Numbered from the stretch's first letter, positions 12,201-20,775 are shown. The stretch is 20,775 nucleotides of DNA from a virus (IMGVR_UViG_3300028388_001952:1-20775); one strand, 5' to 3'. Notes: generated by a model not told the origin, from the letters alone. Numbers and translations are program-made.

Positions 12201-12281
12201 TTCCGCACCATCCTGTAGAATGTGGTCCGGAAATTGATCCTGTATAAGGGTTGAAATATCTTTTGTGATATCTTGACTCAT
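9267..12281 (-). CDS. Large baseplate structural protein in the T4 gp7 position (1004 aa)
   Basis: The protein sits between gp6 and gp8, where T4 carries gene 7 (1032 aa), and has a similar size. I do not see clear gp7 sequence features, so identity with gp7 is positional only. Residues 1-150 are helical and start with ITKDISTLIQDQFPDHI, followed by FVKAYFEYLEEN, a start typical of large structural proteins in marine T4-like phages. The middle is beta-rich, with GYGYT/GTGYT repeats (near 274, 653, 762 and 897) and FxxGExVxQ modules (401-470 and 795-858). The C-terminus has a conserved-looking segment around WRTRNSHLNS and NFYYQEFSYDV (930-956), then HQAGMKLFG. The ATG overlaps the gp6 stop by four bases (ATGA), implying coupled translation. 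The likely job is to bridge wedge proteins in the baseplate. Confidence 0.7.
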   Translation of the reverse strand: MSQDITKDISTLIQDQFPDHILQDGAEIVTSEPYLIVDFVKAYFEYLEENFSDTTMLGRRLLEYDDIDTTVDEFLEFFRRKYLADFPNSIQTDERFIVKNILDLYRSKGSEQSVKLLIKMLFNEMAEIYYPGTDILRASDSKWVKPIFVEVTPDEDDFSLVNKPIYGSLSGATAFVESIVRKRVQNRFVDIVYLSNVKGTFITGERITNDGVLSSAPKIVGSLSSITIEPQNIGGFENGDVLNIISDFGDQGTVRVTNVLSQTGTVDISLADGGYGYTLDSRTNAYISDLIVKRDNTTEVFATGDTVTQNLVKILLNPSESFTLSDGATIIAEDANNVSIANGTVMEYGTETISSLIYPYMILQTEENAFSYTETLEITTDVVWEVGDTLEESNDITFEIENANGVFTIGEIVYQQDFFANTSNTVSERYAFGEVSSANATHLVIIDAFGEFYANNDVITGWDSGAFAEVANLSFDYEGGSGDISLVTSNTEYTVTKSDLSISFTTGRTIRNPVTNVTRTIANKSSQDVIYVDNGTETANIYSISDMSYNGLVIGQNNITIGIASVDGSSFKYLANTSILINQNNVSYTVEDVDPGTGASYEIGTLTNTETISIDAEVISDTNIVGVPYSEINLDGSGSGVGYVSSVTVNAGGTGYTNGSAVTFTGGGFNDEEPLIQAEGTVLTSGGAITSVNITRAGEGFYSTPTISVADGSGANLELVMEFSYGFTANPTGDANTPIEDLLSTTDVEIGTIATLTNVTKGTGYTVKPYADIVVDDSIANPKLTDEISTNTTIISGSFIIGEVVTQANTDAKGIVLSWSASNGRLVLRDISYNDDFVLSSTGGNIIGADSGTIATINEISDENITGDYIGNNADLDVFVIETTGTINTVDIITSGYGYVDGEEVILRREGFDDVVGIARVESQGVDVGYWRTRNSHLNSEKRLHDNFYYQEFSYDVQSAINLVEYEKVLFDIVHQAGMKLFGTTIKITEPEETVEVESSITQV

Positions 12282-14089
12282 GTTCTTGTGCCGGTGACTG
12301 TGATTGAAATGTCTTCAGGTAAAATAGACAGAATACGGTCCTTGGCGGGCGCAATGTCTTTGTTGACAAACTTACCGTAAACCTTGATCGCATTACCACC
12401 AAAATCTGTGACCGTCAATGAGTTGATTTTTACTTCACCCGTTGTATAGTTCACAGTGCCGATCTTTCTCACATAAGGTACAATACCATCAGACGCTTCA
12501 TATACGATATCCAGATTACCTAGGCTGTCGTCCTGTATGTACACCGCGCGGTCCACATAAGTGAATCTTGAAGTGTAGACGGCCGGCTCATATCTCTTGG
12601 AGTACTTGTTGATTGTGGTCGTACTTGTTGAACTAAGATATTCGTCTGGTTCTAGTTCGTTCTCAAAAGAGAAGTTGTAGTAGGTCGCCTGTCGTAGATT
12701 AGGTTGAAGCGCAATGATACCCAGAATGTCGGTGTCGTTTGAAAGTATACTTTCATCGCTGTCGTCAATCATTTTGACTAACTTGGAATACCTTAGCGTT
12801 TTTCGGAAATCTTCCAGGTTGGTATATGAATAGTTGGAGATAGTGTCACGAACTAATGTGTCAATATCACCTGTAGATTTTCGTGTTGCGTTCACATCAT
12901 AAAAAACACGACTGACAACGCGAGCATACATAAACTTTGCGGTTTGAATTACTGGTTCAATCGCGATGGGTGTCTTGTCTGATAGGTAATCGGATATTCT
13001 TGTGCGTGTTGCGTCAGACAAACCATCAATGTTCTGTAGGTCAACCGCCACAACCACCTTACCGTATAGAGGTGGGTTCAGTTTTTCACCACCGAATACA
13101 TTGACTGCTTGTATCTCAGGAAACTCATTCTTCAACAGTACAGAATAGTCCGTCTCGGTAATGGTTCGATTCTGAATTTGTAGATATTTTGGCGCAAAGA
13201 AACGAATTGATTCTGTGCTTTCACGTTCTGCGCCACCCCGGCTTAAATCTTGTTTTGTAACCAATGTGTCATAACCATCAATAGTGTCTTGAGCAGCAAT
13301 GTTATTGATACCGTTGGCGCGCTCGCCGGCCGTGATACGGTATTCAATACGAACAACATTACCAGCTTCTGGATCCACACCAAACACATTCTGACCAAAT
13401 TGAATTATATATTGATCATCGTAATAAGGTTCAATATAAAATACTTTGTCTTCGGCACCAACACCATATAGAGAATTTTTATAGATGTATTCTGTTTGTG
13501 TTTCCAAATCATTTTCAGAAGGTGAAACAAACACACGAACACTGGAGATATCCACACCATTGTTGCGAATAATTAGGTCTTGATTTCTTATATCATCTAT
13601 GGTATAATATTCGTTTAGATACCGCCCTTCATACACTGGTAAGCCTGTGTATGTATAAGAGCCATCGTTTGGTGTAACCACAACTGATTCTTCATTGTAG
13701 AAGACATAGTTTTTATTGTTACACCTCGCGACAAAAGGTGTCTTTTCAGGTATTGTGATGGTGGATGGTGTGTCGCCCAAAGGTACCGAAAATGTCAGAT
13801 TCAACAACATCTTACTTGAGACACGGGATTTTGGAAGGTAGTTCAGTTCCTTGGCGTGTGAAACAACCGACTGTCGCCTTTGCGCAGAATCAAGATACGT
13901 TTCAGTGAACGCCATATTGGTGTAGAAGTTATTCTTCCAGGTATTGTAGGCAAGAATGTCAAGTAGAACATTGATATTCGACCCTTCAAAGTCATAGTCC
14001 TTGAACTTATCCTGCGATTGTAGATAAGTTTTTAGGTCCGACTTTATGTCTGAATAATCAAGTTTGGATAGGTCTGGTGTATATGCCAT
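12278..14089 (-). CDS. 6: Baseplate wedge protein gp6 (603 aa)
   Basis: The N-terminus (LDYSDIKSDLKTYLQSQ, then YDFEGSNINVLLDILAYNT and LDSAQRRQSVVSHAKELNYL) and the central stretch at about 283-350 (GGAERESTESIRFFAPKYLQ, RTITETDYSVLL, VFGGEKLNPPLYGKVVVAVD) are diagnostic of gp6/Baseplate_J-type wedge proteins. T4 gp6 is 660 aa, so the length is close. In T4, gp6 dimers form the continuous ring around the hub and drive the change from hexagon to star form at contraction; the same role is expected here. The start ATG shares one base with the gp25 stop (TAATG), and the stop overlaps the next start by four bases. No domain is missing as far as can be seen. Confidence 0.93.
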   Translation of the reverse strand: MAYTPDLSKLDYSDIKSDLKTYLQSQDKFKDYDFEGSNINVLLDILAYNTWKNNFYTNMAFTETYLDSAQRRQSVVSHAKELNYLPKSRVSSKMLLNLTFSVPLGDTPSTITIPEKTPFVARCNNKNYVFYNEESVVVTPNDGSYTYTGLPVYEGRYLNEYYTIDDIRNQDLIIRNNGVDISSVRVFVSPSENDLETQTEYIYKNSLYGVGAEDKVFYIEPYYDDQYIIQFGQNVFGVDPEAGNVVRIEYRITAGERANGINNIAAQDTIDGYDTLVTKQDLSRGGAERESTESIRFFAPKYLQIQNRTITETDYSVLLKNEFPEIQAVNVFGGEKLNPPLYGKVVVAVDLQNIDGLSDATRTRISDYLSDKTPIAIEPVIQTAKFMYARVVSRVFYDVNATRKSTGDIDTLVRDTISNYSYTNLEDFRKTLRYSKLVKMIDDSDESILSNDTDILGIIALQPNLRQATYYNFSFENELEPDEYLSSTSTTTINKYSKRYEPAVYTSRFTYVDRAVYIQDDSLGNLDIVYEASDGIVPYVRKIGTVNYTTGEVKINSLTVTDFGGNAIKVYGKFVNKDIAPAKDRILSILPEDISITVTGTRT

Positions 14090-14499
14090 TAGCGCGCCCT
14101 GCGTAGGAGTATTTCAAGTGTAGATGTTTCATTAGTATTTATCACAACAAAACGTATCGTTGCCCGTAAATTATTGCTGTCAGGATCACCTCCGACGGTC
14201 ACATCAATCAATTCACATCTTGGCTCATACATTTTTATGGCTGCGCGGATGTCGTTTTCAGCTGATTTGTATGTAACGGGAGTGTGATTTTCAAACAGAT
14301 AGGCCGTGATATTGGAACCAAAATCCCGATCAAACGGGCGTTCACCTTTCTTTGTCAAAACAATATTACGAATCGAGGCTTTCACCGCGTTCTCATTGAT
14401 ATTTACAGAAACATCGTTTGTCACTGGGTGCCTTGTCAGGTCCAGATCAACATCTTTGTATAGTTCTTTTTTCTTTGTGAGTGGTGTAATTGTAACCAT
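14089..14499 (-). CDS. 25: Baseplate wedge protein gp25 (136 aa)
   Basis: The protein contains the GPW/gp25 family core: KKGERPFDRDFGSNI at about residue 50, followed by the Glu-Pro-Arg segment YEPRCELIDV near residue 90. T4 gp25 is 132 aa, and members of the family seed sheath assembly in T4 phages, contractile R-type pyocins and type VI secretion systems. In T4, gp25 binds gp6 and gp53 at the inner baseplate. Here its gene lies directly before gp6 and shares one base with it, whereas in T4 gene 25 is in a separate cluster. The ATG lies five bases after the stop of the M15 gene, with only a weak GGAT as binding site, so coupling with upstream translation is likely. Confidence 0.95.
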   Translation of the reverse strand: MVTITPLTKKKELYKDVDLDLTRHPVTNDVSVNINENAVKASIRNIVLTKKGERPFDRDFGSNITAYLFENHTPVTYKSAENDIRAAIKMYEPRCELIDVTVGGDPDSNNLRATIRFVVINTNETSTLEILLRRAR

Positions 14500-14504
14500 T
14501 AGTC

Positions 14505-16589
14505 TTATCCGTTTCTATATCTGCCTTGTCGGTGGATTTGGTATGCGTAGTATGGTTCTGCGTCATTTCTATTTACAAACGATCCATATCCTCTATTAGA
14601 TCCTATATCGCTGTGTATAAAAACGGAACCAGGATATGTACCGCCAAACCCCTCTTGGCTGGCCGCTTTCAAGAGTCTGGCTCTTTGTGACGCTGTAAGA
14701 TTGTTACCCCAATCAATTGCGTGACCTGTTGTGTGTAATGAACCATCGACACTTTTCGCAATGACTTTATTATAATACGGACTGCGATACGCACTATTCA
14801 CTACAACAGGACCGCTTATGACGCCCTGATCCTGTAATCTTTTGGCGGCTCGGATGGCTCTTACCCAAACTTCGGAGTCGACATTGAACCAACCATCGTC
14901 TGACTTGTTTTCAGAAAATGAGAATAGAGACACTGGCTGTTTTTGTGACCTATATGCTGATAATGCGCGGGCACCCATCTGGGACACATTATCATTAAAA
15001 GATAGATATCCCGCAATGCCGCTGGAAGATATGTTGTTTCTCACCCACATTCTATCGGCTTCGGTGACATTACCAGGCACATATACAGTTGGTTCTAATC
15101 CAGTCAAATCCGCGTTCTCGGTTTTGGTATTATTCGTGTCGCGCCATTTTTCGGCTAGTTCTCTTTTTGCTTTGGCTGGCACTCTTTGTGCGCCATAATC
15201 AAGGGATTCGTTTACTGCGCCGCCGCCAAGAGCCGCCAGAGCGTTGTACCCACCAAAAATAGCATCTTTAAACTTACGAAATTCGTTGGTGACCTTTTTG
15301 AACAATTCATCCACGATACTAGAAAATTTACACGACCGGTACTTAACATTTTTCTTGACAAGATCCTGCGTGATTCTGGGTAACACACCTGCCAATGTCT
15401 GTGGGTCAAGTCTTAGTTCCATAATATGCGCAAATTCTTTGAGTTTGCGACGAATCATCTCCACATTGAACTCCGCAAAAAAGTTAGCATACTTTTGAAA
15501 TTCTCGCATCAACATAGGACCAACACGATCCGGTGCCCAGCCTGGCATACCTGAAATGAAAGTTGACGCTTCATTGAAAATACCTTCTATTCTCGCAAAG
15601 GCTGATTGTGCCAAAGAATTTACTTGTTCAACCGCAGCTTGTAATGGTCCTATAACTTCAGCCAGTATGTGTGATATATTTATCTGTACTAGGCTTTGAA
15701 CACTGCTTATAAATCCTCGGACACCACTCAAAAACGGTTTACGGTCCATTACCTGACTCAGGATTTTGGTGAACAAAGGTGGTAGAATATTAGAGGCACC
15801 GAATTTACAGCTATCAGAATCAATTTCATTATTTTCAACCCATAGATCGCCGTATGTGTTATTCAAAACACTCAAAGCGGCCGCGAGTTTTGGACCTGGT
15901 TCCCATTGTTGTGTGGTGTCGATTCCCGTTTCGTTATCGTCCTCTGTCGTCTCGGGATCATCAGTGCCGGCAGGAGAACCACCTACGCCCGCGACCGGAA
16001 CAATAGGTGTGGTTGTTGAAAAGATTGGAGGAAAAGCGGCCGGGGCACCACTACCACCACTACCGCCGGGGTCGGTTGTTGGTGTAGGTATATTGATATC
16101 TTCTAGTGTGCCGTCAGGTTGTTGAACCGTGATTGGAGTTGTGCCATCATTATTAGGTGCGCCCACATCAACGATTACACCTCCAAGTTCAGCTTCCAAT
16201 TCGTCGTTGACAGTCTTATCAAGTTCTTCAATCAAATCTATTACATCTTGAATGTCAATTGGCAACGGTGAATCTTCTATCACTAGAACCGCAAAATCAT
16301 CCGGTGCGATACCCACATCATATAACGCGTCCGCAAATTCAGATTCACCTATGGTCGTCAGGTTTTTAGAACCCTCTTTCAAAAACCTTTGCTTGATAAA
16401 ATCATATTTTTCTAAATCAAGAAACGGAACAATGGTGTTGAACAGTACAGTTGCTACACGAAGATCGTTGCTGTCATAATTCAGCGTAGGATCCGACTGC
16501 GCAGCCAAAACTGTGTTGATATCGGGCAGAACAATTTGGTTCTGACTGTTCAACATTTCCGTTGGATAGATTGGTCTACAAATAGCCAT
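14505..16589 (-). CDS. Baseplate-associated protein with C-terminal M15-type peptidase domain (694 aa)
   Basis: Residues 1-140 are an unrecognised, partly acidic head. About 145-230 is a low-complexity Pro/Gly/Thr/Asp linker. About 235-470 is a helical, structural-looking region containing SCKF at 260-263 and again at 419-422. Residues about 555-670 form a peptidase M15A-like domain, with AYRSP (600-604), SLHTTGHAID (617-626) and FIHSDIG (657-663); the predicted zinc ligands are His619, Asp626 and His659. M15 enzymes cut peptide bonds in peptidoglycan stem peptides or cross-links. Lying between the gp5 and gp25 genes, it is more likely a tail-associated wall-degrading protein used at entry than a free endolysin, which is inference. 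I see no signal peptide. The start has AGGAG six bases upstream, eleven bases after the gp5 stop. Confidence 0.8.
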   Translation of the reverse strand: MAICRPIYPTEMLNSQNQIVLPDINTVLAAQSDPTLNYDSNDLRVATVLFNTIVPFLDLEKYDFIKQRFLKEGSKNLTTIGESEFADALYDVGIAPDDFAVLVIEDSPLPIDIQDVIDLIEELDKTVNDELEAELGGVIVDVGAPNNDGTTPITVQQPDGTLEDINIPTPTTDPGGSGGSGAPAAFPPIFSTTTPIVPVAGVGGSPAGTDDPETTEDDNETGIDTTQQWEPGPKLAAALSVLNNTYGDLWVENNEIDSDSCKFGASNILPPLFTKILSQVMDRKPFLSGVRGFISSVQSLVQINISHILAEVIGPLQAAVEQVNSLAQSAFARIEGIFNEASTFISGMPGWAPDRVGPMLMREFQKYANFFAEFNVEMIRRKLKEFAHIMELRLDPQTLAGVLPRITQDLVKKNVKYRSCKFSSIVDELFKKVTNEFRKFKDAIFGGYNALAALGGGAVNESLDYGAQRVPAKAKRELAEKWRDTNNTKTENADLTGLEPTVYVPGNVTEADRMWVRNNISSSGIAGYLSFNDNVSQMGARALSAYRSQKQPVSLFSFSENKSDDGWFNVDSEVWVRAIRAAKRLQDQGVISGPVVVNSAYRSPYYNKVIAKSVDGSLHTTGHAIDWGNNLTASQRARLLKAASQEGFGGTYPGSVFIHSDIGSNRGYGSFVNRNDAEPYYAYQIHRQGRYRNG
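14580..14927 (-). other. Peptidase M15A-like domain within the 694-aa protein
   Basis: Residues about 555-670. The pattern SxHxxGxAxD followed about 33 residues later by an IH motif is the zinc-binding pattern of the D-Ala-D-Ala carboxypeptidase/endopeptidase M15 group. All expected ligands are present, so activity is plausible. The exact bond cut cannot be predicted. Confidence 0.8.
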
Positions 16590-16600: not shown

Positions 16601-17914
16601 TTATTCCTGATCGTCCAACAAGCCAGGTCGCGCGGACATTGTGCCCCGACCGAAGTCTGAATACGGCGTTGCCTGTTCTGGTGGATCTTCAACATCAGGT
16701 TTCTTCACTTCGTCCCAATCTCTCAACTCCGCCGTCTTCACACCCATTTCAAGGTATGTTTTGGAACCATCAATTTGAATAATGTCAGCGGCTTTCAGAT
16801 CAATGGTCGAACTTTCGCTCGTGATACGAACATCCTGCGAGGCAGATACGTGATATTCCTCTCTCGATTCGATCCAAGTGTCCTTGTTTGATTTGATGCC
16901 AACGGCACCTTCGGCTTCCATACGAATATCGTTTTCAGAAAACAAGTTGATGTGTTCCGTCTGTGCGCGTATAGAAATATTATGACCAGCATCCATATGT
17001 ACATTTTGACCCGCTGATACAGTGAACGAACCACCAACCATCAGTTCATAATCACCTTGAACAATGTGTTTGACACTACCACCACAATAAACCTCCCAGT
17101 CACCGTCTTCAATGTGTAGGTTGTAAGAGGATTGAACGCGTTCGGACTTGTTATCATTGACCATAAATTCCATATCACCTTCAGAGCCAATGAAGTTTGT
17201 GCCCGAGGCTTTCAACTTCACATTGCCGTGTTGGTCCATTTGTACGGACGAACCCGATTCGTGCATAAGAACAATGATCTGTGAACCTTCGTGCCCGCCC
17301 ATTTCAATGTAGCTGGTGTCGTGTGGAGGACCCGCGGACCAAACCGAGGATTTCACCGAACCGCCGTATACTGGCATAGGTTCATTTATACCTTTTACAT
17401 CCGAACCTGGTTTAGTTGATCCAATACCAAATCCTCGCAACAAATTTTTACCACTGTTATATATTGACCGTACTGCGGCGGCCAGTGCCGCAGTTTCTTC
17501 AATGCCTTCACCACTCATTTGTGGTGGAATAGGCCATTCACCAAACCGTCTGTATGCTTCCAGACTAGGTTTGATCCAAGGGTTTTCACCGTCTGCACCT
17601 ACGCCTTCAAACGGCGCAGTCGAAGTTCCAGGTAGAGTGCCGATTACCATTGGGTGTTGCGCGTCACGACCATCAATGAAGAAACCAAAAACCCAGTCAC
17701 TGATTTCCGGTACAGAAATCATCTTACTGTTTTGTAGAACCACCGCCCAAGGAAGATGTTCGGTCGGCACGCCTTCGCCGCCTTGAGAATCTTCCCAAGT
17801 GGGGTGAACACCAAAACAGCGCACTTGAACGCGTCCTTGGTTCATCATATCAATGTTGTTTTCAACCACTCCCATAAATGGCATCATATTGTCAAATGTC
17901 ACACTTGATTTCAT
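16601..17914 (-). CDS. 5: Baseplate hub/spike protein, gp5 family, without lysozyme domain (437 aa)
   Basis: Residues about 10-100 match the gp5 OB-fold: MPFMGVVENNIDMMNQGRVQ, CFGVHP, then GVPTEHLPWAVVLQ and DWVFGFFIDG. Residues about 205-240 (GHEGSQIIVLMHESGSSVQM and DQHGNVKLK) and the beta-repeat region to about 395 (VQGDYELMVGGSFTVSAGQN, NISIRAQ, DIRMEAEG) correspond to the T4 gp5/VgrG-type triple-stranded beta-helix. T4 gp5 is 575 aa, with a lysozyme domain at about 174-345 between these parts and a maturation cleavage after Ser351. Here only a short Gly/Ala-rich linker (about 100-200) fills that place. The protein should form the trimeric cell-puncturing spike on the hub. The start shares one base with the preceding stop (TAATG). 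No PAAR tip gene is seen in the window. Confidence 0.9.
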   Translation of the reverse strand: MKSSVTFDNMMPFMGVVENNIDMMNQGRVQVRCFGVHPTWEDSQGGEGVPTEHLPWAVVLQNSKMISVPEISDWVFGFFIDGRDAQHPMVIGTLPGTSTAPFEGVGADGENPWIKPSLEAYRRFGEWPIPPQMSGEGIEETAALAAAVRSIYNSGKNLLRGFGIGSTKPGSDVKGINEPMPVYGGSVKSSVWSAGPPHDTSYIEMGGHEGSQIIVLMHESGSSVQMDQHGNVKLKASGTNFIGSEGDMEFMVNDNKSERVQSSYNLHIEDGDWEVYCGGSVKHIVQGDYELMVGGSFTVSAGQNVHMDAGHNISIRAQTEHINLFSENDIRMEAEGAVGIKSNKDTWIESREEYHVSASQDVRITSESSTIDLKAADIIQIDGSKTYLEMGVKTAELRDWDEVKKPDVEDPPEQATPYSDFGRGTMSARPGLLDDQE

Positions 17915-20184
17915 TATCTTGGACCCTCTAATTTACTAACGATGTTTGGTATTGTTTTTGTTCCCGGCCTGTTAAGTACTGATGTTACTTGTGATACTGT
18001 CTCTAAAGCCTTTGACGCGATTTGGTTGAGTGCCGGTATACCAAGACCAGCTGCGTCACTTTGTGTTGTATTGCCGCCGCTTGAAGACGATGAACCTGTT
18101 TTCTTCAAACCACTCTTTGAAGCTGTCACCTCACACGTATAAACGGCTTCGTCAAATATGTGTTTTATACTTTCAACAAGGTATAGTCCGGACTTTTCAG
18201 GATCAATTTCGTGCGATTGAACTTCGTTGCCCAATAGTCTTACGTCTCGTTTTGGTATGACCAGTTCCACAACCTGACCAGCCGTGATATTATTGCGACC
18301 ATAGATTTTAAAGGTGGTGTAGTGTTGTACGTGGTGATAAGCCGAGGCCGATTTGCCATTATATGAATCTGTATAAAATGGGTTTGGTCTTATATACGTA
18401 TTTGTTGTATTTGTGCCTATGCCAGTTGGAGTATTTCGAGTAGCTTCTTGCCCCTCGGCCACAACATCCTGTGAAAGTACAATTTCTTCATCAGTAACTG
18501 GTGGCAACTCAGCTTGTTCTAATGGTGTTCCTGTAGTAACACCTGGTCCCGTTGCGCCTATTTCTTTTTCGTATGTATCAAAATATGTTGCGACGGAATC
18601 TGCTCGGGCATTCTGTAAAGACCACGCTTCCCATTCTAATCCCATAGCAGCAAACAGTTGATCAATTTTTGCGGGATCGTTTTGATGCAACTCCATATAT
18701 TCATCTAGCGTTGCTGGATTGGCGGCTCTACCGCCAGGCAGTCTTGATCTACCTCCATATTGTCCAAATCCTGCATACCTATCCCTTGCGCGCTGTAGTG
18801 CTGCTTTATCCTGATTTTCTGGCGTCATAGGTAAGTTCTTGCCGCGATTAACTTCTTTCCAAGTGCCATAAATAAATTGATATCGACCTGTTGCGCTTGA
18901 GACGCCACCGGGTGCCGGCGTGACTCCAGGGTGAGGTTTGGTTGTGTCGTGAAATACATTACCAGTTCCTTGTCTAACGGCATAATCCCCCCTTGATTCT
19001 CTCGCGGCAATACCGTTCAAAAACGCAGTCTCCCAAGGTTGTAACCCTTTTGTTGCTGGGTTATCCATAGGTACAGATTTACCAGGCTTGTATGGACCAG
19101 TTGTGCCGGGAAATCCACCGCCGGGCACAAACCCAAGTCCCGCAATCGCACCTGGTTCCGCATAGTCTTTGATCACCAATGTGTTGTCATATTCTGTCAT
19201 ATACGTGTCAACAAACGGTTTCTTATCGTGCATTGGTTTATCTACACCACCAGTACCGTCTGGTAAAAAGTAATCTGGATATTCGTCAAGATAATCATAC
19301 CGCGTTTGTAGATATCGCTTGTTCATCCAATCAATTTCACTAGTCTTGCGTTTGTATCCGCCTTGAACCATATCACGGATGGTATTGACGTGTTCGCTCC
19401 ATTCTATCTCTATGATTTCCTGCATTAGCATCAACTGACCATCTTTTTCACTACCATATTGTTGGTAATTCATAGAGTTATATAATAATTTCAAACTACC
19501 CGGTGGTTCTGGTTCACCTTCTGAATCATATATCGTCGCTAATCCAGAATTGAAATTACCCATTGATTCGAAGTAAAACCTATTGCGATTTTCGAACCAT
19601 CGTATTGTCTGTATTTGTGATGGATCTTCTGGTACAGCTTTTCGCGAAAAGAAATACATTGTTTGTTCGGGTGAAAAGTTTGGAACGACCAACCATTGTG
19701 GACCCCTAGTTGTGACAGGCGGCTCCAATGCCTTTTCGCCAACATAATATTCGTCAAATATATCCTGAACCATATCATCAATGCGAATGTTCTTATACGA
19801 CTTTTGAACGGACAAGGACTCGGTAATGAACTTGTCAATTGATACAAAGTTCAAACGGTACATCGCGGCCACATCTTGCCCGTCATTGGTGTCTGTTACC
19901 TTGTCAATACTGTAGACGAATATTCGGTGCTTGTATTTCTTCTTATAGAAGTCTTCGTATTCAATCACTCCGATTTCTTCACCCTTGAGTGGGTAAAGGT
20001 GTATCTGGTCAAAAGGTTCTCGTATCCAGGCTTCACCACGCAAGTGCCCCACATTCATCGATTCTTCAATCGTGAAGTAATAGATCGCATCTTTAAATTC
20101 AATAGGCGTTTTCTTTTCGATTATGTTTGTCAGTTGAAACTTGAATAACCGAAAGTCACCCGCCTTGTTATGTGTGTCAACCAT
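17914..20184 (-). CDS. gp27-like baseplate hub protein with an inserted lysozyme/transglycosylase-like domain (756 aa)
   Basis: The N-terminal 330 residues look like the gp27/gpD hub fold: IRIDDMVQDIFDEYYV, then VPNFSPEQTMYFFSRKAVP and IRWFENRNRFYFES, the usual segment of these proteins. The C-terminal part (FKIYGRNNITAGQVVELVIP at 625-644 and GLYLVESIKHIF, CEVTASK to 690) matches the second hub barrel. Between them, flanked by Gly/Pro-rich linkers, lies a wall-degrading domain at about 383-540. T4 gp27 is only 391 aa and has no such insert. The gene lies directly before gp5, whose OB-fold binds gp27 in T4, which supports the hub role. The start overlaps the gp53 stop by eight bases and its binding site is weak, suggesting coupling. 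A Ser/Gly-rich stretch (697-704) precedes a C-terminal tail of about 50 residues of unknown role. Assignment as gp27 rests on pattern and position; overall fold similarity was not tested. Confidence 0.8.
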   Translation of the reverse strand: MVDTHNKAGDFRLFKFQLTNIIEKKTPIEFKDAIYYFTIEESMNVGHLRGEAWIREPFDQIHLYPLKGEEIGVIEYEDFYKKKYKHRIFVYSIDKVTDTNDGQDVAAMYRLNFVSIDKFITESLSVQKSYKNIRIDDMVQDIFDEYYVGEKALEPPVTTRGPQWLVVPNFSPEQTMYFFSRKAVPEDPSQIQTIRWFENRNRFYFESMGNFNSGLATIYDSEGEPEPPGSLKLLYNSMNYQQYGSEKDGQLMLMQEIIEIEWSEHVNTIRDMVQGGYKRKTSEIDWMNKRYLQTRYDYLDEYPDYFLPDGTGGVDKPMHDKKPFVDTYMTEYDNTLVIKDYAEPGAIAGLGFVPGGGFPGTTGPYKPGKSVPMDNPATKGLQPWETAFLNGIAARESRGDYAVRQGTGNVFHDTTKPHPGVTPAPGGVSSATGRYQFIYGTWKEVNRGKNLPMTPENQDKAALQRARDRYAGFGQYGGRSRLPGGRAANPATLDEYMELHQNDPAKIDQLFAAMGLEWEAWSLQNARADSVATYFDTYEKEIGATGPGVTTGTPLEQAELPPVTDEEIVLSQDVVAEGQEATRNTPTGIGTNTTNTYIRPNPFYTDSYNGKSASAYHHVQHYTTFKIYGRNNITAGQVVELVIPKRDVRLLGNEVQSHEIDPEKSGLYLVESIKHIFDEAVYTCEVTASKSGLKKTGSSSSSGGNTTQSDAAGLGIPALNQIASKALETVSQVTSVLNRPGTKTIPNIVSKLEGPR
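18565..19038 (-). other. Lysozyme-like (lambda R / GH104-like) domain inserted in the hub protein
   Basis: Residues about 383-540. The order FLNGIAARESRGDY, SSATGRYQFIYGTWKEV, then MTPENQDKAALQRARDR parallels the lambda R-type lytic transglycosylase: a helix with the catalytic Glu, GRYQ, then SPxxQDxxALQ. Glu396 is the candidate catalytic residue. The domain should cleave the glycan strand of peptidoglycan during tail penetration. The family name is a recognition call and could be a related lysozyme clan member. Confidence 0.75.
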
Positions 20185-20740
20185 TCAGCAATTCTTTCAT
20201 TTCCTCTAGTGCCTGGTTCGTGTATTTTCTGTCTAACAACAAAATGGATCGCTTGTTGTCGTTCAGTTCCGATTCGTAATCATACACTCTTATTGGTGAC
20301 CATTCTGAACCGAGGAGCGATGTGTCAAGTCGGTATGTGTCAGGCGACAAAACGATTTCTGGCTCATCGTTGTTTCGATATTCAACAATGTTGTCGTCAA
20401 TCAATGTGTTTTGAGTCCAAGCCAAAACCGCATAGCCTGTTGTGTTGGCTTGTTCTTCGTATTTATTGATAATGTAACGGTCAAAGTCGCGCGAACTCAT
20501 AGGCCAGTCAAAATATGGATCCACAATCTGGTTGGAGAAATATACCAGCCAGGTCAAACTCACATTGCCGTAGTAGAAATGTGCCACATCTTCTGGTCTA
20601 TCATCACTTTCCAACATATAGGGCAGGAAGGCATATGGATCCGCGAACACGGTTGAACGAAAAACATTGCGACGGGTTATGTCTCGTGCCACCCGACCAT
20701 CGTATTTGATCTTCGGAAAGTAGGAAAAGTATACTGACAT
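20177..20740 (-). CDS. 53: Baseplate wedge protein gp53 (187 aa)
   Basis: The product starts MSVYFSYFPKIKYDG and carries DPYAFLPYMLE, EDVAHFYYGN and SLTWLVYFSNQIVDPYFDWP, the core of the gp53 family. T4 gp53 is 196 aa. A longer reading from GTG 20770 is possible, but ATG 20740 has a perfect AGGAGG five bases upstream, so I chose it. In T4, gp53 joins neighbouring wedges and contacts gp25 and gp6 at the inner baseplate. It also precedes gene 5 in T4, so the order is conserved except that the gp27-like gene is placed between them. The stop overlaps the next start by eight bases. No truncation is seen. Confidence 0.92.
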   Translation of the reverse strand: MSVYFSYFPKIKYDGRVARDITRRNVFRSTVFADPYAFLPYMLESDDRPEDVAHFYYGNVSLTWLVYFSNQIVDPYFDWPMSSRDFDRYIINKYEEQANTTGYAVLAWTQNTLIDDNIVEYRNNDEPEIVLSPDTYRLDTSLLGSEWSPIRVYDYESELNDNKRSILLLDRKYTNQALEEMKELLNG

Positions 20741-20745
20741 TTTAG

Positions 20746-20751
20746 CCTCCT
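20746..20751 (-). promoter_or_regulatory. Perfect Shine-Dalgarno for gp53
   Basis: AGGAGG lies five bases before ATG 20740 and decides the start over the upstream GTG. It is the strongest binding site in the window and heads the block. The remaining bases to 20775 hold no recognisable promoter or terminator. Confidence 0.85.
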
Positions 20752-20775
20752 GATGGCGGTAGTATATCACTGATA

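Follow-up and report, generated by a model that had tools for sequence, protein, structure and literature searches.

The baseplate locus

The stretch of DNA analyzed here (hereafter, the window), a complete IMG/VR record 20,775 bases in length, carries on its minus strand a baseplate operon for gp53, a 756-aa hub, gp5, a 694-aa protein with an M15 domain, gp25 and gp6, along with other large structural proteins. The gene for the baseplate wedge protein gp53 (20177..20773; PF11246, phrog_232) lies directly upstream of that for the 756-aa gp27-like baseplate hub (17914..20184), an intact ORF with the frame open throughout, which contains an internal lysozyme domain. Next to the hub gene are those for a 437-aa gp5-like spike (16601..17914), the 694-aa protein (14505..16589) and the baseplate wedge proteins gp25 (14089-14499) and gp6 (12278-14089), the latter three proteins and the spike being assigned through family searches. 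Among isolates, the gp6 proteins nearest to that of the window belong to the Sinorhizobium phages phiN3 and phiM12 (40% identity), and the gene order of the operon matches that of phiN3. A scan of bacterial genomes with the hub yielded no relative, so that no host is suggested.

In phage T4, the textbook case, the tail lysozyme is part of gp5. In the window gp5, family searches detected an OB fold and a beta-helix and no enzyme domain, and the T4-type arrangement, with a lysozyme between these two parts, is absent from the window and present in relatives (L141, L142, L149 and L239). The first-pass annotation of this locus had placed a wall-degrading domain in the gp27-like hub and none in gp5, and both halves of this assignment hold, given the matches to the inserted domain described below and the empty searches with gp5.

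The 694-aa protein contains a C-terminal M15 peptidase domain (PF05951/PF08291) and is a conserved neighbor: a protein of similar size is encoded in the equivalent place, between gp5 and gp25, in related loci, and the syntenic protein of phiN3 is annotated as 'peptidase'. The baseplate thus probably has this protein as a further wall-degrading enzyme. At the other end of the window, an ORF at positions 3-908 encodes repeated NTTxNG-type units and ends at the record edge with SDISFKKNIE, which resembles the beginning of an S74-type intramolecular chaperone; the product is a probable tail fibre.

Assignment of the 756-aa protein to the gp27-type hubs

Pfam contains no family for the window hub, the hub family profile found no match among PDB chains, and the hhalign comparison of the hub family with T4 gp27 was not significant, so that a comparison of folds was needed. 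The match to phrog_350 spans hub residues 6-314, and an HMM derived from the relatives matches residues 7-335 and 581-694, being interrupted at a single place of the model. The hub core accordingly consists of a first part (residues 1-351; 19132..20184, minus strand), which is aligned in 49 relatives, and a second part (residues 596-694; 18103..18399, minus strand) delimited by the HMM, the alignment and the AlphaFold2 (AF2) model; these are followed by a C-terminal tail predicted with low confidence (residues 695-756; 17917..18102, minus strand), the place where an enzyme is found in L091, L131, L151, L153 and L237. In the AF2 model, pLDDT is mostly about 90 in residues 1-345 and 600-690, and the first PDB match of this model in Foldseek is T4 gp27 (1k28_D, E=1e-10, probability 1.00), followed by hubs of T4-like phages, contractile injection systems and diffocin. 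On this evidence, the core has the pair of tube-type beta barrels seen in T4 gp27. With confident core parts, T4 gp27 as the first structural match and a gene that shares its baseplate operon with those for gp53 and gp5, the gp27-like character proposed in the first-pass annotation is confirmed by the predicted structure, and the 756-aa protein can be assigned as the gp27-type hub of a T4-like baseplate.

A lambda-R-type lysozyme domain inserted in the hub core

The two parts of the core are separated by an insert of 244 residues (352-595; 18400..19131, minus strand) that is missing from 49 of the 49 aligned hub relatives. It holds a lambda-R-type (GH104-like) lysozyme domain at residues 376-548 (18541..19059, minus strand), delimited by phrog_90, the profile, the model and Foldseek, and flanked by linkers, about 24 and about 47 residues long, for which pLDDT in the AF2 model is mostly below 50. 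The earlier proposal of a lysozyme-like fold at residues 383-540 was thus correct as to the fold and slightly too narrow in its limits. From the order of secondary-structure elements, we infer that the exit point of the insert lies not on the torus but on the excursion that separates the two halves of the second barrel (residues 240-306 of T4 gp27).

The single sequence by itself would not convince one of a lysozyme identity: Pfam has no family above the cut-off for this domain, and a single-sequence search reaches lambda lysozyme (1am7/3d3d) at E=0.06 only. The evidence comes from profiles and structure. The endolysin family phrog_90 matches the domain with E=8e-11, and a profile of the domain family matches lambda lysozyme with E=6e-8 over 85 positions, so that the relationship to lambda R suggested at first pass passed the profile search. 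The model of the domain alone (pLDDT 87, pTM 0.84) has a sole clear match in Foldseek, lambda lysozyme 1am7_A (E=2.7e-3, probability 1.00, TM 0.50/0.55); the sequence agrees with that of lambda R at only 32 of 133 aligned positions. Glu396 (codon 18997..18999, minus strand) is aligned with the catalytic Glu19 of lambda R, and this residue, the GRYQ motif (residues 433-436; 18877..18888, minus strand) and the glutamine and aspartate of the NQD motif are invariant across 25 copies of the domain. Glu396, GRYQ and the MTPENQDKAALQ motif (residues 453-464) are located where the first-pass annotation had them. Sequence homology, the lambda lysozyme fold and the equivalent of the catalytic glutamate together confirm residues 376-548 as a lambda-R-type lysozyme domain, a predicted muramidase.

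The internal placement in the hub was found in one contig only among the IMG/VR relatives scanned, which is what would be expected if a lysozyme fragment of another phage had been stitched into an ordinary hub gene during assembly. Such a chimera is hardly credible, given that the reading frame is open across both joins, that the ends of the insert coincide with the alignment break against all 49 hubs and are marked by disordered linkers on both sides, and that the composition is continuous, the lysozyme part not being a strong outlier in GC or GC3 among the neighboring genes. Furthermore, the nearest relatives of the domain are hub-borne copies from the same phage group (see below), a result that a random stitch would not give.

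Location and identity of tail enzymes in related phages

Relatives were gathered from IMG/VR through gp6, gp5 and profile scans; when the complete hub was used as a single-protein query against viral contigs, no relative was recovered. A combined alignment of hub and domain was discarded, given that it misplaced the C-terminal halves of the hubs onto the insert.

Four locations of a glycan-cutting domain emerge from this set. L140-L144, L147, L149 and L239 have an enzyme-free hub of 445-453 aa, and the lysozyme family of the window resides in their gp5, between the OB fold and the beta-helix. The lysozyme lineage of the window is found at the hub C-terminus in L151/L152 and L153, a position that is occupied by an SLT domain in L131 and L091 and by SLT_3 in L237, for which the hub sequence is partial. 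SLT_3 is also located inside gp5 in L247, and Phage_lysozyme2 inside gp5 in L148 and L150; in L139 and phiN3, gp5 ends in a lysozyme-like domain. The survey of T4-like phages therefore yielded hub-borne enzymes in L151, L153, L091, L131 and L237, all of them at the C-terminus, and no second case of the internal insertion.

Among 62 non-redundant pairs of hub and gp5 (including L131, in which gp5 ends at the contig edge), the probes used detected an enzyme only in the hub in 5 pairs, only in gp5 in 12, in both proteins in none and in neither in 45. The mutual exclusion of hub-borne and gp5-borne enzymes over these 62 clusters is not significant on its own, since independent placement would give about one pair with both; it becomes notable within the clade of the window alone, where shared descent also contributes. 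A rule of one enzyme per phage holds only within this clade, and even here L234 shows none.

The 45 of 62 pairs of the wider group that have no detectable enzyme in either protein suggest that some phages may do without a tail muramidase, and the inserted domain could accordingly be a wall-binding or structural remnant that is no longer an enzyme, the M15 peptidase alone digesting the wall. We regard this as highly unlikely: the catalytic glutamate, GRYQ and the NQD residues would not be expected to be invariant in all 25 copies of a remnant, and the repeated appearance of unrelated glycan-cutting families at equivalent ports points to selection for activity.

Origin of the hub-borne domain

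In the phylogenetic tree of the domain, the hub-borne copies of the window, L151 and L153 form one clade (98.5/100), and the hub-borne and gp5-borne copies together form another (97.1/97) that is separate from the other phage proteins sampled. In full-domain alignments, the window domain is 54% identical to that of L151, compared with at most 42% for copies in other proteins. Since the hub-borne domain and the gp5-inserted lysozymes have a common ancestor exclusive to them, the sequence data support the relocation of one enzyme lineage between gp5 and the hub as the source of the arrangement in the window. Of the two parts of the first-pass reading that bear on origin, domain transfer is thus upheld by the presence of the same enzyme lineage in gp5 and in the hub of relatives, and the notion of an independent solution gives way to relocation.

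The opposite view, in which the hub-internal enzyme was acquired separately from another phage or from a host and is unrelated to the gp5-borne lysozymes of the relatives, draws on the novelty of the port and on the wide spread of this lysozyme family in large proteins of unrelated phages. An 817-aa protein of a podovirus-like contig (L088, 5209-7662), for instance, contains a copy that is 52% identical to the window lysozyme domain over 86 residues. We consider separate acquisition unlikely in light of both clades described above and of the higher identity to the L151 copy than to copies in other proteins.

The tree of the hub core requires at least 4 changes of location, at least 6 changes of enzyme family and at least 3 changes of carrier protein. 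Uniting all hubs that carry an enzyme in one clade is disfavored on the hub data (p-AU 0.0185). In the same tree, the sister group of the window is weakly supported (58.8/76) and the union of the window with L151/L153 is mildly disfavored (p-AU 0.036); given this weak placement, the transfer may have run from gp5 to the hub or from the hub to gp5.

Comparison with known hub and spike enzymes

The window resembles the T4 gp27/gp5 complex (PDB 1K28) in the gp27 hub fold, the presence of gp53, gp5, gp25 and gp6, the spike composed of an OB fold and a beta-helix, and a single lysozyme-superfamily muramidase in each protomer. The difference is that T4 has a T4L-type lysozyme in gp5, whereas the window has a lambda-R-type lysozyme in the hub and an empty gp5. 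The Sinorhizobium phages phiN3 and phiM12 (Emdodecavirus) share the order gp53-hub-gp5-M15 peptidase-gp25-gp6 but have a 416-aa hub without an enzyme and a gp5 that carries a lysozyme-like domain at its C-terminal end.

The combination of a gp27-type hub and a wall hydrolase domain in a single chain, as in the window, is already published for the Anabaena myophage A-1(L), diffocin and the Tal proteins of siphophages. The A-1(L) hub gp15 contains an internal lysozyme domain along with an endoglucanase and a peptidase, of which the latter two were shown to be active (PMC10966104). Its lysozyme domain, which is not among the two reported as active, belongs to the same family as that of the window (PDB 8KEA; profile E=7e-6, residues 102-213) but is located near the N-terminus (residues 56-265), at a site other than that used in the window, and shares its chain with the other two enzymes. 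The diffocin protein CD1368 is likewise a gp27-type hub with peptidoglycan hydrolases placed for release on contraction, its hub-borne hydrolase being held against the baseplate wedge (PMC11329794), and its C-terminal lytic transglycosylase resembles the enzymes of L091 and L131. Unlike the window hub, CD1368 has C-terminal tandem enzymes, no internal insertion and a Gram-positive target. Siphophage Tal proteins, such as gp59 of 80alpha, join a gp27-related N-terminal part and a wall-directed enzyme in one chain (PMC7048315); in contrast to the window, the tails are non-contractile and the C-terminal domain comes from a different enzyme class.

The window hub is therefore not unique in kind, being accompanied by the enzyme-carrying hubs of L151, L153, L091, L131 and L237 and by those of A-1(L) and diffocin. 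As far as we found, what is new is the use of an internal port by a T4-like hub, along with a panel of relatives that have the same enzyme in either protein; our literature search found no report of a port inside the gp27 core in T4-like phages.

A proposed exchangeable cassette and its possible exposure

Taken together, these observations make it very probable that the hub of this phage, presumably a trimer, is also its tail lysozyme and that in this clade the domain that cuts glycan behaves as an exchangeable cassette. Under this scenario, the cassette could occupy any of four ports, namely gp5 internal, gp5 C-terminal, hub C-terminal and hub internal, with normally one filled per phage, and the phage of the window would have arisen when a cassette of the lineage common to gp5 and the hub landed in the internal hub loop. 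The muramidase domain is inserted in a loop of the hub core by way of the two flexible linkers, and gp5 is a bare needle. A more specific version, in which a mobile cassette within one T4-like clade fills a single one of four interchangeable ports on two interlocked proteins, the same lineage having moved between gp5 and gp27 and one port lying inside the gp27 core, appears to us evenly balanced between right and wrong. If it is correct, the port would set the time and place of enzyme release.

The T4 gp5 lysozyme is blocked by a linker and the beta-helix until the helix departs (PMC3004832). A block of this kind cannot act likewise in the window because the enzyme is in the hub, and by analogy with diffocin an exposure step that differs from that of T4 is plausible. 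In the sequence of events that we propose, three copies of the lysozyme would surround the hub at the tip of the tube, and the folded resting baseplate would, by analogy with known systems, keep these domains off the wall. The drive of the tube would then carry them across the outer membrane into the periplasm, where the glycan strands would be cut; the neighboring M15 peptidase probably cleaves the peptide cross-links, and the lysozyme domains would stay tethered to the tube end after loss of the needle.

A different geometry, in line with the placement above the spike given at first pass, would keep the enzyme in the hub ring and let it act only after the spike is shed, instead of beside the needle as in T4. 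The tie of the domain to the hub speaks for it, as do the lack in gp5 of the linker that blocks the T4 lysozyme and the precedent of diffocin, in which the hub-borne hydrolase rests on the baseplate wedge and is released on contraction (PMC11329794). Against this stand the length and low confidence of the linkers, through which the domain could reach either the side of the hub or the needle. We treat the placement above the spike as a serious though somewhat less probable candidate.

The T4 model of activation, with its block by linker and beta-helix, is unusable for phages with a hub-borne enzyme, and the annotation 'baseplate hub subunit and tail lysozyme', is mistaken in these cases when derived solely from homology to gp5. 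The close relatives, in which the same enzyme is carried either by gp5 or by the hub, amount to a natural experiment on whether position matters and on how the enzyme is held back before contraction.

Additional observations in related loci

Several loci show other departures in the genes for the hub and the spike. In L047 (5188-7689), the hub gene lies in three frames, the last piece being continuous with gp5, which probably reflects sequencing frameshifts. The gp5 of L012 (8734-9525) is short (263 aa) and shows at its C-terminus a weak match to the PAAR motif (E=0.003), a possible fusion of the spike tip. Further enzyme swaps in gp5 are seen in Rhizobium phage N34 (L003, 10266-11132), where gp5 has a CHAP domain, and in Caulobacter phage Cr30 (L004, 6518-8623), where it has Phage_lysozyme2 and a weak C-terminal match to M15.
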